Below, piece after piece: positions 15,788 through 26,019 of a stretch of DNA of 48,576 bases. A model generated the notes under the pieces. The model worked only from the letters and a program-made list of their open reading frames with translations. It was not told the origin of the DNA and ran no database searches. How positions within the stretch are numbered: the stretch's first letter is position 1; every line of letters starts with the position of its first letter. This stretch comes from Campylobacteraceae bacterium (GTDB taxonomy: Bacteria > Campylobacterota > Campylobacteria > Campylobacterales > Sulfurovaceae): the NCBI GenBank assembly GCA_027076905.1, contig JALTGP010000271.1, forward strand, positions 1 to 48,576, given 5' to 3'. The translations under genes and the position numbers were made by a program.

Positions 15788-16552
15788 ATGATTATAGATA
15801 AAATTATTGTCTCACAAGAGAGTTATTGTAGTAAGAATAGGTATGATATCATCTACTCAAATAAGAAGTATATAGAGAAGCTCTTTTCTCAAGGAGTCAC
15901 TCCTGATAATATCTCTGAATCCGCACTAAAAAGCTACTATGCTCATATCTATTTTCTTCAGGTAAAAAATGGAGGATTTTCTAAGCTTGATGAGAAAATT
16001 GGAACAAAAATCACCATACTCTACTATATAAAAGATGGATTAAAATCCATTGGAGCCACTAAAAATATCAATCTATTTGAGCAATATCTTGATGCCAAGG
16101 AGAAACAGGAGACCCAAAACTATAAAATATTTGATAAACTCTTTACCTATATTAATAATCAAGAAGACGTCTTACAACTCAATACCAATTGGCTCAAAGA
16201 GAACAAAAAGTTGGCAATTAGCAAAAAGCATCATCTCACTAATAGTTATAGGAGTAATTTAGAAATTTTTCAAGAGAATCAAAAAAAAATAAATGTCAAG
16301 ATACTAAAAAAACTCTGTAAAATAGCTAATGAGGAGTATCTTCGCATCACCTCATACGACCAAAATAATCTATATATGAACTCTTGTCACTTCAAAACCA
16401 TACACTCCTATTTTTATATGATAAAAGAGAAAGAGAGATATGTTATGTACAACAGTTTTACAAAAAAAGAGGTATCAAGTGTTCTGATAAAAGGAGAAGA
16501 TGCAGAGAAAAAAAGATTTTTCTCCACTTTATGGCATAAATTTATAGCTTAA
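15788..16552 (+). CDS. DUF4375/DMP19-like hypothetical protein
   Basis: ALKSYYAHIYFLQVKNGGFSKLDEKIG...GLKSIGA resembles the DMP19 family core (NGGF, IGA). Confidence 0.45.
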   Translation: MIIDKIIVSQESYCSKNRYDIIYSNKKYIEKLFSQGVTPDNISESALKSYYAHIYFLQVKNGGFSKLDEKIGTKITILYYIKDGLKSIGATKNINLFEQYLDAKEKQETQNYKIFDKLFTYINNQEDVLQLNTNWLKENKKLAISKKHHLTNSYRSNLEIFQENQKKINVKILKKLCKIANEEYLRITSYDQNNLYMNSCHFKTIHSYFYMIKEKERYVMYNSFTKKEVSSVLIKGEDAEKKRFFSTLWHKFIA

Positions 16553-20024: not shown

Positions 20025-21125
20025 ATGAACTATTTAAAAGATTTAGAACAGATTATTAATATAAACTCGTTTACCAAAAACCAAAATGGCGTTAATATGG
20101 TCTCCAAACAGATGAGCATATGGCTAGAGGAACTAGGCTTTGACAACCACTGTCATGAGCGTTCTCATATCGGCAATCATCACCTCTATACCTCTCCTAA
20201 AACAGATGGTATAAAAATTTTACTTTTGGGTCATAACGACACTGTATTTCCCAAAGGAAAATTTGAAAACTATTCGGAGGACAGTGAGTGGATTTACGGT
20301 CCTGGGGTTTGTGATATGAAGGGTGGAAATATAGTAGCACTTCAAGCACTTCGTAATATCTACGCCAAAAATAACAAAATAGAGAATATAGATTTTTTAT
20401 TGGTATCTGACGAAGAGACAGGAAGTGACGATAGTAAACTTCTCTCCTCTTCTCTTGCCAAGGATTATGATGTATGTTTTGTTTTTGAAGCAGCAGGAGA
20501 GAACCTAGAGGTGGTTACAGGACGTAAAGGGGTTGGTACATTTACCATTGATATCGAGGGGAAAGCTTCTCATGCAGGAGTTCGATACACAGAAGGTATT
20601 AATGCTAATCTTGAAGCAGCTCATAAACTCACAGAACTCACAAAACTCACCAATTTGGAAATAGGAACAACGGTTAATGTTGGTAAGATAGAGGGTGGAA
20701 TTGGTGCTAATACCATCTCTCCTTCTGCCAAGCTTCTTTTAGAACTTCGTTACACACAAAATTCTGAAAGAGATAGGCTTTTGAAAGCATTAGAGGAGAT
20801 TACAAATAACTCTTATGTAAAAGAGACAAAAGCCACCCTTTCAGGGCTTATTCAGCGTGACGTGATGGAAGCAAATAAGGCACAATCAGAACTAATCAAA
20901 AAAATAGAAGCATTATCAAATACAAAAATTTTAACAGAACAGCGTGGTGGCGTGAGTGATGCCAATATCATCGCTTCAAAAGGGGTTACAACAATTGATG
21001 GATTTGGCCCTTTTGGAGATGGTGACCACACTGTAAAAGAGAGAGCCTTAAAAAGCTCTTTTATTCAACGAATAGACTTAATGACAACAATTTTAGAGCA
21101 TCATCAAACATTAAAGAAATTTTAA
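20025..21125 (+). CDS. M20 family metallopeptidase (carboxypeptidase G2/ArgE/DapE-like)
   Basis: LLLGHNDTVFP, GVCDMKGG, VSDEETGS, GKASHAGV, FGDGDHTVKE active-site motifs. Confidence 0.92.
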   Translation: MNYLKDLEQIININSFTKNQNGVNMVSKQMSIWLEELGFDNHCHERSHIGNHHLYTSPKTDGIKILLLGHNDTVFPKGKFENYSEDSEWIYGPGVCDMKGGNIVALQALRNIYAKNNKIENIDFLLVSDEETGSDDSKLLSSSLAKDYDVCFVFEAAGENLEVVTGRKGVGTFTIDIEGKASHAGVRYTEGINANLEAAHKLTELTKLTNLEIGTTVNVGKIEGGIGANTISPSAKLLLELRYTQNSERDRLLKALEEITNNSYVKETKATLSGLIQRDVMEANKAQSELIKKIEALSNTKILTEQRGGVSDANIIASKGVTTIDGFGPFGDGDHTVKERALKSSFIQRIDLMTTILEHHQTLKKF

Positions 21126-21145
21126 CTTACTAAGGAGAGAAGAGA

Positions 21146-22066
21146 ATGCCAAACAAGCGAACAATAGGAATGTGGCTCTATAAAAATGGTGGAGGATATG
21201 CCATTGGAGAAAAGATTATTTCAAAACTACAAGAGCGTAATATTGAGACTATTGATGATATAGATCTCCATAAAGCAATAGCTCAAAATAAAAATATTGT
21301 ACATAATGGTGTAAAACTAAACAAACTTGACCTCTTTTTCTCCTACAATGCAGGGGAGCAGACTGTCTATCAAACTTATCTCTATCAAGCACTTAACCGT
21401 ATTATTCCGATGATTAATTCATACGACTCTTTTCAACTAACAGAGGACAAATTTCAAACCTCATTTGTATTGAGAAATGCAGGAGTTAATACCTCTGATT
21501 ATAAACTTTTTCACCGTGATGATGCCTATCAAGGTCTTAAAAAAGTGCTTAAAAAATGGGGTGGAATGGTATACAAACCAACCAATGGTTGGGGAGGCTC
21601 GGGACTGACCAAAATAGAAGATAAAGAGAGCCTACAAGCATTAGTTCCAACACTTAACCAAAGCAATAGACGTGAAGTTTTTGTTGAAAGATTTATAACT
21701 TATGATAAAACCGATTTCAGAGTAGATGTTGTCGATGGTCACTTTGTAGGCTGTTATGGACGTAAAGCAGGTGGTAATGACTGGAGAACCAATGTTACCT
21801 CAGGGGGTTCGGTATTTATACGTGAACCAAATGATGATGTAATAGACATTGCTCTCAAAGCAGCAGCTGCGTGTGGTACTGATATTGCAGGAGTAGATAT
21901 TATTTTTGATCAAGAAAAAGAGAGATATGTGGTACTAGAAGTCAATGGAATTCCTGCTTTTGCCACACCATCACAAGAGAAGATGGGACTTGATTTTAAT
22001 GATAAAAAGATAGAGCTCATTGTAGATATGATAGACCGAAAAACAAAAAAACAGAAAAGTAATTAA
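21146..22066 (+). CDS. RimK-type ATP-grasp ligase (1)
   Basis: YKPTNGWGGSGL, RTNVTSGGSV, GVDIIFDQEKERYVVLEVNGIPAF. Confidence 0.85.
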   Translation: MPNKRTIGMWLYKNGGGYAIGEKIISKLQERNIETIDDIDLHKAIAQNKNIVHNGVKLNKLDLFFSYNAGEQTVYQTYLYQALNRIIPMINSYDSFQLTEDKFQTSFVLRNAGVNTSDYKLFHRDDAYQGLKKVLKKWGGMVYKPTNGWGGSGLTKIEDKESLQALVPTLNQSNRREVFVERFITYDKTDFRVDVVDGHFVGCYGRKAGGNDWRTNVTSGGSVFIREPNDDVIDIALKAAAACGTDIAGVDIIFDQEKERYVVLEVNGIPAFATPSQEKMGLDFNDKKIELIVDMIDRKTKKQKSN

Positions 22067-22120
22067 TAAAAAGATAATTAATAAAAAGATAATTAATTAA
22101 AAAAGTAATTAACAACAAAA
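22060..22120. repeat. Tandem about 15-bp repeat (TAATTAATAAAAAGA)x2 plus two diverged units
   Basis: 22060-22074 and 22075-22089 identical; 22090-22105 and 22106-22120 diverged copies. Confidence 0.75.
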
Positions 22121-22137
22121 TAACTAAGGAAGATATT

Positions 22138-23376
22138 ATGGGATTAAAAAACGAAGAACTACCAACACTTGGATTTTTATACATGGATTATGTATTAAGA
22201 TTTTTTGACTACTCAAACTTTAAAGGATGGCCAAATAAGATTGAAGAGGTGACATACCACTGGGGAAATGATAAAGATAGATTTATCGCTGAAGTTAAAA
22301 GAAAAAAGATTGATGTACTTATTGGAAATATTCCTGCAACAGCCTACGAGACTTTTAGAGAGATAGCAAGAGCGTTACCAAATGTAAGATTTGTACCCTC
22401 TTTGGATACACAGTTTTCCAATAAATCAAAAGAGAATGTAACCCGTTTTGCGTGGAAATATAATTTGCCAATTCCAAAAACATATATCTATTACCACAGA
22501 GATAATGCAGATAAGTTTCTCAAAAAAACAAAGTATCCAAAAATTGTCAAAAAATCTTATGGACCATCTAACTATGGTGGATACTTTGTACATAAAGTTG
22601 ACTCTTATCAAGAGGCAAAAGAGCTCTATGCCAGTAAAAAATATCACCCAATGTATTTCCAAGATTTTATTCCAATGGAAGCAGATATTCGTGTAATGCT
22701 TATTGGTCACAAACCTGTCTGTGCATTCTGGAGACGTGCACCTAAAGGGGAGTGGTTAACCAATACAAGCCAAGGTGGAGAGATGGACTACATGGACGTA
22801 CCTAAAAATGTTCTTGAACTCGCAGTACGCACCTCTAAAGCTGCCAAAGCTGAATACTGGGCATGTGATGTTGCTTATGGTAAAGATGGTAAAGTAAGAA
22901 TTTTAGAGTGTGCCACTGCATTTGCTGCATTCCCATACATCAGAGACTGGATTGGTCAGTACCTTATGTGGAATCTAAGTGAAGGAAGATTCAGAAAACC
23001 ACATATGCCAATGTTTAATTGGGAAGAGCTTGGTAAAATCTCTCCTAATTTACTTAGAACCATGAGACATATCACTTTTGGAAAATACTCAGCCTCTTAT
23101 GATGGTTCTTACTTTGGTAATAAGAAAAAATCATACGGTGAGGGAACAGTATATTTACATGACCTTGATGAGAGCTATCCTGTACTTGAAGTAGCAGAAA
23201 GAACCTCTGAAGAGTGGCCAAGTGAAAAATGGAATTATCAAGATAGATTTAAACTTAAAAGTATCAAATCAATGAAAGTTCCTGCCCTCAAAGAGGAGGA
23301 AGCACCTGAAGTTTCAGGAGACGAATCAGCTACTACTGAGGCTGATGAAGAGCTAAATACAGCCTCATCAAACTAA
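22138..23376 (+). CDS. RimK-type ATP-grasp-fold protein (2) with acidic C-terminal tail
   Basis: KKSYGPSNYGGYFVHKV, EWLTNTSQGGEM, WACDVAYGKDGKVRILECATAFAAF; tail KEEEAPEVSGDESATTEADEEL. Confidence 0.8.
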   Translation: MGLKNEELPTLGFLYMDYVLRFFDYSNFKGWPNKIEEVTYHWGNDKDRFIAEVKRKKIDVLIGNIPATAYETFREIARALPNVRFVPSLDTQFSNKSKENVTRFAWKYNLPIPKTYIYYHRDNADKFLKKTKYPKIVKKSYGPSNYGGYFVHKVDSYQEAKELYASKKYHPMYFQDFIPMEADIRVMLIGHKPVCAFWRRAPKGEWLTNTSQGGEMDYMDVPKNVLELAVRTSKAAKAEYWACDVAYGKDGKVRILECATAFAAFPYIRDWIGQYLMWNLSEGRFRKPHMPMFNWEELGKISPNLLRTMRHITFGKYSASYDGSYFGNKKKSYGEGTVYLHDLDESYPVLEVAERTSEEWPSEKWNYQDRFKLKSIKSMKVPALKEEEAPEVSGDESATTEADEELNTASSN

Positions 23377-23380
23377 ACTT

Positions 23381-23407
23381 TTAACCTCTTTTGAGGTTAA
23401 TTTTTGT
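23381..23407 (+). terminator. Intrinsic terminator
   Basis: TTAACCTC-TTTT-GAGGTTAA followed by TTTTTGTT. Confidence 0.75.
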
Positions 23408-23445
23408 TAAAATTCTCCTGAAATTATCATTAGGGGATTATTAAC

Positions 23446-26019
23446 ATGAAACAACAATATCGTTCATACCAAGAGAGTTCTGACTTTCTTATAGAGTGTA
23501 CCAAAAAATATCCAGATATTATCTCTGTTAGCACCATCGGAAAAAGTTGGGAAGACAGAGATATACTCTTAGCAACCATCTCTTTAAATGTAGCATTTGC
23601 GAACATCAAACCTGCTCTACTTTTTACAGGAACTGTTCATGCTCGTGAGTGGATTGGTAATGAATTGGGTATTGAATTTATTGACTATATTCTAAAGAAC
23701 TACAAAAACAATCCTCAAATTTTGACAACCCTAACCAATAACACATTATATTTGGTTCCCTGTCTAAATCCTGATGGATTTGAGTACAGCAGACAACACT
23801 TCTCATTTTGGAGAAAAAATAGACGGGATAATAGGGACGGAACATTTGGGGTTGACCTCAATCGTAACTTCTCCATAGGCTATCGCAAATCAACACAGAC
23901 CAACTCAAATGTTTATGGTGGTCCTGAGCCTTTTTCAGAACCTGAAACCCGAGCGATTAAAGAGTTTGTAGATACCCATACCAACATCACCATTGCTCTT
24001 GATTATCACTCACAAGGAAATGTATTTTTCCCTGCCCACAAGTTTAACCATGAGATGGAGCTAGAGGGAACTGACCTAAACTCACTTTGTGCAAATATGA
24101 ACTACTATATTAACAAAGTAACAGGAAGACGATATGGCATAAATAGAGGAAAACCACCCACAAAACTTATCTCAGGTTCAGGAAGAGAGTACTACTACTC
24201 AAAAGGTATCTTGCCTGTAGTTGTGGAGGTAGGGACGCGAAATATTCCTGATTATATGCAAAATATGTCAGAATCCATCAATGAGAATATCCCTGCACTA
24301 CTCTATGCCCTAAGTGAAGCGAAAAACTACAGTCACAATGCACCTAAAAGAGTAAAGAATTTTCATATCAACTCCTTCTCCTCTCATGAGTGTCACCTCG
24401 CATGGGAGTATGAAGATAACCGAGATATCTATTTTGAAATCTATAGAAACTTAAACAATAAAATGGCGTGTAACGACTCCTCTCTCATTGGTATCACCTG
24501 CAACAATGAGTTTAAAGATGAAAACCTAAAAAGTGGGACACGGTATCTATACTACATTCGAGCTATTGATAAACTCTCACTCACAAAATCCCCTTATGCA
24601 CCAAAAGTAAAACTAAAAACACTGCTTGAAGACAATGAGTTTGCAAAAACCATCTTTCCAAATAAATCAAAAATAGGCTATGTTGCAGAGAAAACACTCG
24701 AAGCCAACATCAGTCACTTTGGGAGAAACTCTCTAAAGGTTGGGGTCAGTAGTGGAAGAGGAATCTCTTATGGTGTTATGGAGTTTGACTTGACGGGAAT
24801 CCCAGAAAATGCAATTATTTTAGATGCTAAAATCTCTCTCTATCCACTCAACAGAGTCTCTGCCAAAATAGAAAAGTATGGAGAGTGGTCACTCTCTATT
24901 ATCAATCAAAAAACCATTGCTGATATCCAAGACTATCATCAAGTCCATGAGGCAAAACATGTAAAAACAGTAGGTAAAAGTGTCCCATCAGAACAGTTAA
25001 CGCAAGGGATTTGGAGTCATTGGGACTTCAACGAGTTTGAGAGAAAAACACTCCAAGAGGAGCTTTCCAAAAGAAAAGTGATTTTTAAACTTGAAGGGCC
25101 AAAAGAGCTTCCTATCGGAAGAGATTCTCAAATCATGGTATTTGACTTGGGTTATGGCAATCAAGGTGGAGGACTTCACTACCGTCCCTCTATTGATATC
25201 AAATACACCATTCCATCAGAACAAATCTCTATTGAACTCTCCAATGCCATCACCATCTCAGAAGAGATAGTAATCTCCAATAAACTCGCTTGTGGATTTG
25301 ATAAAAATAAAAACAAAGTCTACGCCTATATGTCCTTTGACCTCTCAGCACTCCCTGACAATCAAGAGACCGTCATCACAGAAGCATGGATTGAGATTCA
25401 CAACGCCTCAACCGTCAAAAAAGAGATTGATATTCGCTATGATGTGGAGTTTGTTGATTTTGATGAACTCTCCTACTCTGATATCAAAGAGAGAGAACGT
25501 ATAGAATACATCGGCTACGAAGTAAGCTCCCATGAACTAGGACGCAAAAAATGTCATAATTTCGCCTTTGACCACTACTCAAAACTTGCCCTTGAAGAGA
25601 TGCATGAGCAGGACAAAGAGGCGAAGTTTATTATCCGTCCCACCTCAGTTTTAAGCCGTGAACACCTTATCAACTGGGTACATGAGGGGGAAAACTCAGC
25701 CAAACTGGTCATCAACTACATTGTAAAAAGAAAACACCCACTACCAAATCCAGAAAATCTAAAAGCCCATGTGGACAAAGAAACTGTAAAAATTAGTTGG
25801 GACAGAATCAAAGATGATGCGTGTATAGGCTACTATGTTGTTAGAAACAGGTGGCACAAACCCAAAAACCCATTTGATGGAGTAAAACTCTACGCAGGAG
25901 CAGACAACTTCACCTATGATACCTTTGGTTCAACCACGCTTAGTAAGTTCTATACAGTATTTTCATATGATGATGTGCCTAACTATAGTGAGGGGGCGGT
26001 GATTGAGTATAAAGCATAA
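23446..26019 (+). CDS. M14 zinc carboxypeptidase with Fn3-like and DNRLRE-like C-terminal domains
   Basis: TVHAREWIGNE (HxxE), VDLNRNF, ALDYHSQGN, VVVEVGT; Fn3-like CHLAWEYEDNRDIYFEIYRN; DNRLRE-like SYGVMEFDLTGIPENAIILDAKISLY. Confidence 0.88.
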   Translation: MKQQYRSYQESSDFLIECTKKYPDIISVSTIGKSWEDRDILLATISLNVAFANIKPALLFTGTVHAREWIGNELGIEFIDYILKNYKNNPQILTTLTNNTLYLVPCLNPDGFEYSRQHFSFWRKNRRDNRDGTFGVDLNRNFSIGYRKSTQTNSNVYGGPEPFSEPETRAIKEFVDTHTNITIALDYHSQGNVFFPAHKFNHEMELEGTDLNSLCANMNYYINKVTGRRYGINRGKPPTKLISGSGREYYYSKGILPVVVEVGTRNIPDYMQNMSESINENIPALLYALSEAKNYSHNAPKRVKNFHINSFSSHECHLAWEYEDNRDIYFEIYRNLNNKMACNDSSLIGITCNNEFKDENLKSGTRYLYYIRAIDKLSLTKSPYAPKVKLKTLLEDNEFAKTIFPNKSKIGYVAEKTLEANISHFGRNSLKVGVSSGRGISYGVMEFDLTGIPENAIILDAKISLYPLNRVSAKIEKYGEWSLSIINQKTIADIQDYHQVHEAKHVKTVGKSVPSEQLTQGIWSHWDFNEFERKTLQEELSKRKVIFKLEGPKELPIGRDSQIMVFDLGYGNQGGGLHYRPSIDIKYTIPSEQISIELSNAITISEEIVISNKLACGFDKNKNKVYAYMSFDLSALPDNQETVITEAWIEIHNASTVKKEIDIRYDVEFVDFDELSYSDIKERERIEYIGYEVSSHELGRKKCHNFAFDHYSKLALEEMHEQDKEAKFIIRPTSVLSREHLINWVHEGENSAKLVINYIVKRKHPLPNPENLKAHVDKETVKISWDRIKDDACIGYYVVRNRWHKPKNPFDGVKLYAGADNFTYDTFGSTTLSKFYTVFSYDDVPNYSEGAVIEYKA

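Follow-up and report, generated by a model that had tools for sequence, protein, structure and literature searches.

A 48,576-nucleotide stretch of DNA from a Campylobacteraceae bacterium (contig JALTGP010000271.1), here called the window, carries a cassette of four genes on the + strand at positions 20025-26019. They encode an M20 metallopeptidase, two RimK-type ATP-grasp proteins that we call GR1 and GR2, and an M14 carboxypeptidase. The four genes are one self-contained, horizontally mobile unit. Our preferred reading, to which we give roughly an even chance, is that the cassette carries out reversible ligation of acidic residues. GR1 would write, GR2 would hold, target, or regulate, and the two peptidases would erase. 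A first-pass annotation, made by a model from the letters of the window, had listed four consecutive + strand genes here. Open reading frames and Pfam matches confirmed this gene set, and its main features are as follows.

20025..21125, + strand: M20 metallopeptidase, CPG2-like, 366 amino acids (Pfam Peptidase_M20 and M20_dimer); predicted to be a carboxypeptidase for C-terminal glutamate/acidic residues or an (iso)dipeptidase
21146..22066, + strand: GR1, RimK-type ATP-grasp, 306 amino acids (Pfam RimK); predicted amide-forming (glutamyl-type) ligase
22138..23376, + strand: GR2, RimK-type ATP-grasp, 412 amino acids (Pfam RimK, 52 bits); the window copy is without the C-terminal helix-hairpin-helix domain that almost all homologues have
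22906..22914, + strand: GR2 metal-site triplet E257-C258-A259, replacing the Glu-x-Asn of RimK-type ligases (alignment, A259 in 79/79)
23446..26019, + strand: M14 carboxypeptidase, 857 amino acids, leaderless (Pfam Peptidase_M14); C-terminal FN3-like (predicted) and DNRLRE-like beta-sandwich modules
24184..24186, + strand: codon of the M14 residue Arg247, which matches position 255, the S1' specificity residue in carboxypeptidases A/B (alignment to CPB)

Co-inheritance and mobility of the four genes

We surveyed 150 genomes of Campylobacterota (all listed ones belong to Campylobacterales) and 80 loci of public genomes. The complete four-gene set was present in 14 of the 150 genomes, and subsets almost never occurred. 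GR2 and GR1 were each found in 15 genomes, M14 in 14, and M20 in 17. The M20 tally includes one distant 35% match, and M20 stood alone in genome G061. The GR2 tally includes a broken remnant in G037 (G037:C1:157167-157475), which has ~105 residues and two stops. The other three genes are absent from G037, and this is apparently a loss in progress.

Holders and non-holders of the cassette are intermixed in at least three genera. It is present in G003 and G131 and not in G058 (genus g2), in G013 and G036 and not in G029 or G031 (genus g15), and in G009 and G129 and in no others of genus g11, the G037 remnant apart. The sister species G036 (with) and G029 (without) reveal the empty site: their flanks align with each other at 84-88%, and precisely the four genes are gone. 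The flanks in locus L131 (to 5638 and from 11761) are only ~120 bp apart in G029. All four genes also sit together on a 2.1-Mb replicon of Photobacterium sp. DA100, a member of the Gammaproteobacteria, where they are 51-62% identical to those of the window. There, M20 is divergent from GR1-GR2-M14, and GR1, GR2, and M14 have 4-base start/stop overlaps. No fifth gene was constant in the sampled neighborhoods. Therefore, with a clean empty site, no constant fifth gene, and a copy in another phylum, we conclude that the cassette is self-contained and mobile. Co-inheritance across Campylobacterota, which the first-pass annotation had put forward as a check, was observed, as was gain or loss of the block between sisters.

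Four gene orders occur among the 80 loci: M20>GR1>GR2>M14 (as in the window), <M20 GR1>GR2>M14, GR2>M20>GR1>M14, and a split form. M14 is non-adjacent in some loci, and the GR1-GR2 gap is mostly 0 to 35 bp (50 loci). In the split form, seen in Sulfurimonas-like genomes, GR2 comes after efp and usually before dnaE, and M20>GR1>M14 is elsewhere (shown in G009). Examples are L139 (6336-8418), L042, and L050, each with a solitary GR2 directly 3' of efp, which encodes EF-P. The efp gene is also immediately 5' of M20-GR1-GR2 in L023, L028, and L031. More generally, the sampled loci place the cassette beside many unrelated housekeeping genes.

Predicted activities of the ligases and peptidases

GR1 is the predicted active ligase. 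It matches Pfam RimK with 70.2 bits (gathering score, 21), and its full set of ATP-grasp catalytic and metal residues (K102, K144, R192, N216, D251, E265, and N267) is invariant in 50/50 sequences, including the Glu and Asn of the metal motif E265-V-N267. Its nearest solved relatives in the PDB are ArgX, RimK, and LysX, with ArgX closest by sequence. A RimK/ArgX-like WRTN..SGG motif suggests a glutamate-type amino acid as the substrate. GR1 has no Mur-ligase-type second domain.

The first-pass annotation had said that alignment of the ligases to a characterized pathway would count against its proposal. Models for glutathione, LysX, cyanophycin, MptN, the RimK S6 ligase, and N-acetylglutaminylglutamine (NAGGN) synthesis all scored well below cut-off. 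The top NCBIfam models for GR1, MptN (137.9 bits; cut-off, 350) and rimK_fam (125.8 bits; 143.4), were not reached. Neither were those for the RimK S6--L-glutamate ligase (NF007764, 52.9 bits; 331), LysX (TIGR02144, 98.7 and 75.2 bits; 275.6), cyanophycin synthetase (TIGR02068, 41.9 bits; 850), and NAGGN synthetase (TIGR03103, 38.3 bits; 569). Known pathway equivalogs were rejected because every model score was below its cut-off.

The first-pass annotation had treated GR1 and GR2 as a pair of RimK-type ATP-grasps. Both are present and both match Pfam RimK, GR2 with 51.8 bits (gathering score, 21), but they are not equivalent. GR2 is the best conserved of the four proteins, with K96, K98, K138, R185, N209, D244, and E257 invariant in 79 sequences. 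However, its Glu-x-Asn metal site is altered: D244 and E257 are kept in 79/79, and the Asn position is Ala (A259) in 79/79. Because the metal-binding Asn is replaced throughout, GR2 may be a partner or a pseudo-ligase. In the alignment, that Asn is missing from synapsin too, a structural neighbor of GR2. AlphaFold modeled GR2 with low confidence (predicted local distance difference test [pLDDT] score, 63), and we therefore used the model only for the fold class and the well-folded C-terminal domain. The closest fold is ArgX, and the synapsin C domain and MdnB/C are also structurally similar. Similarity to the graspetide maturases MvdC/MvdD and SAV_5884 is weak and far below cut-offs.

Most GR2 homologues have a C-terminal helical domain that the window copy does not. 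The window GR2 is atypical and C-terminally shortened, and the first-pass annotation missed the helix-hairpin-helix (HhH) tails of its homologues. These tails are mostly RuvA/RecD2-like (HhH)2 domains (RecD2 model, E=2e-7; RuvA, E=1.4e-5; HHH_5, E=8e-6; all sub-cut-off), well folded in the AlphaFold model. Other GR2s have a ComEA-type HhH tail (HHH_3 [PF12836], E=4e-27; TIGR00426, 60-62 bits; cut-off, 53.1), and this fusion to a RimK-type ATP-grasp forms the GR2 C-termini of L134, L140, L141, and L142. The HhH domain has been lost from the window GR2, whose C terminus is a short acidic tail, and no remnant of the domain is present downstream of the gene. ComEA-type HhH proteins are DNA binders, and one binds a protein too (PMC3879209, PMC2601033). 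That GR2 is fused to HhH domains of two kinds points to a role for the binding of nucleic acid (or a scaffold).

Both peptidases keep their zinc and catalytic residues, as the first-pass annotation had reported. M14 matches Pfam Peptidase_M14 with 189 bits, and H65, E68, H188, E261, R126/R127, and N139-R140 are invariant. These are the zinc HxxE...H ligands, the catalytic Glu, and the Arg127/Arg145-type residues. The enzyme is of the CPA/CPT type, with an HAREW motif and a CPA-like fold (model pLDDT, 82; template modeling score of the catalytic domain, ~0.8 to CPA, CPB, and CPO). At residue 255, the S1' specificity position, an Asp makes the enzyme basic-specific, as in CPB, and an Arg makes it acid-specific, as in CPO. 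Arg247 of M14 aligned to the first Asp of the CPB motif GGSDDW (Asp255) and is invariant in all 32 diverse homologues. Therefore, a preference for acidic C-terminal residues is predicted, as in CPO, an M14 enzyme that prefers C-terminal Glu/Asp (PMC6214572). No signal peptide was evident by eye in the window protein or its homologues, which start MK(Q/N/K)QY.SY, so M14 does appear to be leaderless as first annotated. Its C-terminal all-beta region matches DNRLRE_dom (41.9 bits; cut-off, 34), and the model points to FN3-like modules.

The best PDB match of M20 is CPG2, a glutamate carboxypeptidase (1cg2, E=1e-28). Equivalents of CPG2 H112, D141, E175, E176, E200, and H385, and of N275, R288, and R324, are kept in 35/35 sequences, which covers the zinc ligands, the catalytic Glu, and the Arg/Asn residues that bind the C-terminal carboxylate. 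K208 of CPG2 is replaced by Glu. The PRK06133 glutamate carboxypeptidase model was not reached (203.3 bits; cut-off, 349), nor was the [LysW]-lysine hydrolase model (45.2; 363). An acid/glutamate specificity is suggested for M20.

From these features we infer the directions of the reactions and the partnership of GR1 with GR2. GR1 would convert an acceptor carboxylate to an acyl-phosphate and then form an amide with the amino group of an acidic residue such as Glu; we infer that L-glutamate is the most likely one. GR2, an ATP-grasp paralogue whose metal site is altered, would probably be a substrate-holding or regulatory partner. M14 would remove alpha-linked acidic residues stepwise from the C terminus, and M20 would take off the last or a differently linked residue or split a released dipeptide. 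Because GR2 is joined to HhH modules in most species, nucleic acid or a protein bound to it is probably where the reaction occurs or what controls it. The acceptor might be a protein, a nucleic-acid-bound protein, or a self-primed polymer, in each case in the cytoplasm. A narrower version, which we consider rather unlikely, is nucleic-acid-tethered tagging, in which the RimK-type ligase and a DNA-anchored pseudo-ligase would put poly-glutamyl tails on DNA- or RNA-bound proteins and the two zinc carboxypeptidases would erase them.

Acceptors and rival explanations

The first-pass annotation had proposed a writer/eraser system. That proposal is strengthened by the acid-type Arg at the S1' position of M14 and by the closeness of M20 to CPG2. 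It overlooked the altered metal site of GR2, which, with the HhH tails of the homologues, points to a nucleic-acid-tethered or otherwise scaffolded partner. Several observations weigh against reversible acidic-residue ligation as we have set it out. The four-gene cassette does not encode an acceptor. The HhH tail is dispensable, being absent from GR2 of the window, L065, and L080. G105, a 1.4-Mb genome, retains M20 and GR1 only (L136, 1567-3923), followed by a 95-amino-acid open reading frame, which suggests that these two can work without GR2 and M14. M14 has no obvious equivalent of Tyr248, the position being variable. N275, R288, and R324 of CPG2 are widely conserved across M20 enzymes, so the acid specificity of M20 rests mainly on similarity to its nearest relative. 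Finally, distance correlations among the four genes are 0.45 to 0.85, with a modest value for GR1-M14 (0.45), and they weigh little because they have no housekeeping control.

The main rival is a self-primed acidic polymer, because RimK enzymes make free poly-alpha-L-glutamate (PMC11957791). The acidic product of GR1 (with GR2), either poly-alpha-glutamate or a storage or osmolyte peptide resembling cyanophycin, would be trimmed by M14 before M20 split the last (iso)dipeptide. We regard this as possible, if doubtful. The cassette is self-sufficient, with no extra partner gene, and many marine and vent lineages are among its named holders. M14, although leaderless, bears binding-type beta-sandwich modules, and GR1 has sub-cut-off similarity to the cyanophycin and NAGGN synthetase models. 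However, the HhH domains of GR2 fit no obvious role in a storage or osmolyte pathway, the GR2 metal site is altered, and a Mur-ligase-type second domain is absent. The NAGGN partners (asparagine-synthetase-like and M42 proteins) were neither among the four genes nor a constant neighbor. Reversible tagging and polymer synthesis differ in the product that would accumulate when the erasers are deleted. If the product is a peptide polymer, it would be made by a route through two ATP-grasps and not by a cyanophycin-type synthetase.

The remaining explanations are much less probable. Ribosomal protein S6 (the RimK target) and EF-P were considered as dedicated targets because some loci have rpsF or efp next to the cassette: rpsF-ssb-rpsR is near it in L023, L024, and L031 (ssb-rpsR in L028), and efp precedes M20-GR1-GR2 in the three loci named above and GR2 in many Sulfurimonas. 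However, among the 16-17 genomes with readable S6 tails, the C-termini are identical in G036, with the cassette, and G029, without it, and S6 was rejected as a dedicated target. EF-P has no acidic C-terminal tail, and the many unrelated housekeeping neighbors also make modification of a translation component improbable. Another candidate is a DNA-linked conflict or stress system, in which GR2 would sense DNA through its HhH domain and activate GR1 and the peptidases would reset the response. Mobility, patchy distribution, self-containment, and two kinds of HhH tail would suit such a system. However, PADLOC returned nothing but one weak CARF-model match to M20, and a defense system was rejected. 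Housekeeping genes make up most of the neighbors in the loci sampled, no toxic effector domain is present, and no close viral homologue of GR2 was found. None occurred on viral contigs, and phage matches were partial, ~25-31% identical, and mostly to cyanophage S6-ligase-like proteins. We consider this explanation very improbable.

A LysW-carrier route was rejected: LysW was absent from all 14 cassette genomes by a search whose control was positive in 4, in line with the first-pass remark that no LysW-like carrier was visible nearby. A graspetide-type ribosomally synthesized and post-translationally modified peptide (RiPP), with the peptidases processing the product, would agree with the weak similarity of GR2 to MvdC/MvdD and SAV_5884 and its MdnB/C-like fold. 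This route was also rejected and seems highly improbable, because the ligase gaps are short, the maturase scores are far below cut-offs, and no precursor or transporter of at least 80 amino acids was a constant neighbor (frames under 80 amino acids were not searched systematically). Least likely, to the point of being negligible, is a chance association of amino-acid-scavenging housekeeping peptidases with unrelated ligases. M20 and M14 are common families, and G061 has M20 alone, but the clean empty site, co-occurrence, and cross-phylum recurrence contradict it.

Known systems and the genomic setting

The individual enzymes come from known superfamilies. Their combination, the HhH-joined altered ligase, and the cassette behavior are new in that they match no described system that we found. 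A literature search, with most subscription journals outside its reach, found no published description of the cassette. In eukaryotes, reversible glutamylation is familiar from tubulin; in bacteria it has seldom been described (RimK/RimB). If reversible acidic-residue ligation is correct, a compact cassette with its own writer, an HhH-joined altered partner, and two erasers would widen the bacterial picture and offer a compact system amenable to expression.

The bacterial precedent is in Pseudomonas, where RimK adds glutamates to RpsF and RimB removes them (PMC11957791). The RimABK system and the cassette are alike in that a RimK-fold ligase adds and a protease removes. However, the RimB eraser is a retropepsin that serves one ligase, whereas the cassette has two zinc carboxypeptidases and two ligases, one of them altered. 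Moreover, S6 tails do not vary with the presence of the cassette, and GR1 scores 52.9 against 331 for the S6 ligase model. The LysX/ArgX-LysW-LysK pathway also pairs a RimK-fold ligase with an M20 hydrolase, and ArgX is nearest to GR1 by sequence and to GR2 by fold. It differs in needing LysW, which the 14 genomes do not have, in model scores that stay below cut-offs, and in having no counterpart of M14.

Tubulin TTLL/CCP enzymes share an ATP-grasp writer and a cytoplasmic M14 eraser with acidic preference, but the cassette has a CPA/CPT-type M14, a RimK-type ligase, and no tubulin. Cyanophycin synthetase, cyanophycinase, and isoaspartyl dipeptidase likewise combine ATP-grasp synthesis with stepwise hydrolysis; however, neither a Mur-ligase domain nor a cyanophycinase is among the four genes, and scores are far below cut-off. 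The synapsin C domain has an ATP-grasp fold near that of GR2 and the same missing Glu-x-Asn motif, but synapsin is a eukaryotic vesicle protein without peptidase partners. CPG2, to which M20 is closest in sequence among solved structures, is a folate hydrolase that works alone. CPO, which has the preference for acidic residues expected of M14 from its Arg247, is an animal enzyme associated with the endoplasmic reticulum and lipid droplets. In contrast, the cassette has the CPG2 and CPO types in one bacterial unit without export signals.

In the window, a divergent UptA-like membrane-protein gene is upstream of the cassette and leuA is directly downstream. The GC content of the cluster is 37.1%, compared with 36.5% for the window. 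A consensus scan gave 10 putative terminator-like sites in the region, versus 4.0 expected from shuffles. One is between GR2 and M14, where M14 may have a promoter of its own.

23381..23400, both strands: terminator-like hairpin between GR2 and M14, 8 pairs with a T tract (consensus scan)

A DMP19-like protein is encoded at 15788-16552 of the window, its gene flanked by those for an ABC-F-type ATPase and a sigma factor. The genome of the window also has a third RimK-like ATP-grasp, in a 353-amino-acid frame, at G000:C22:23245-23544.

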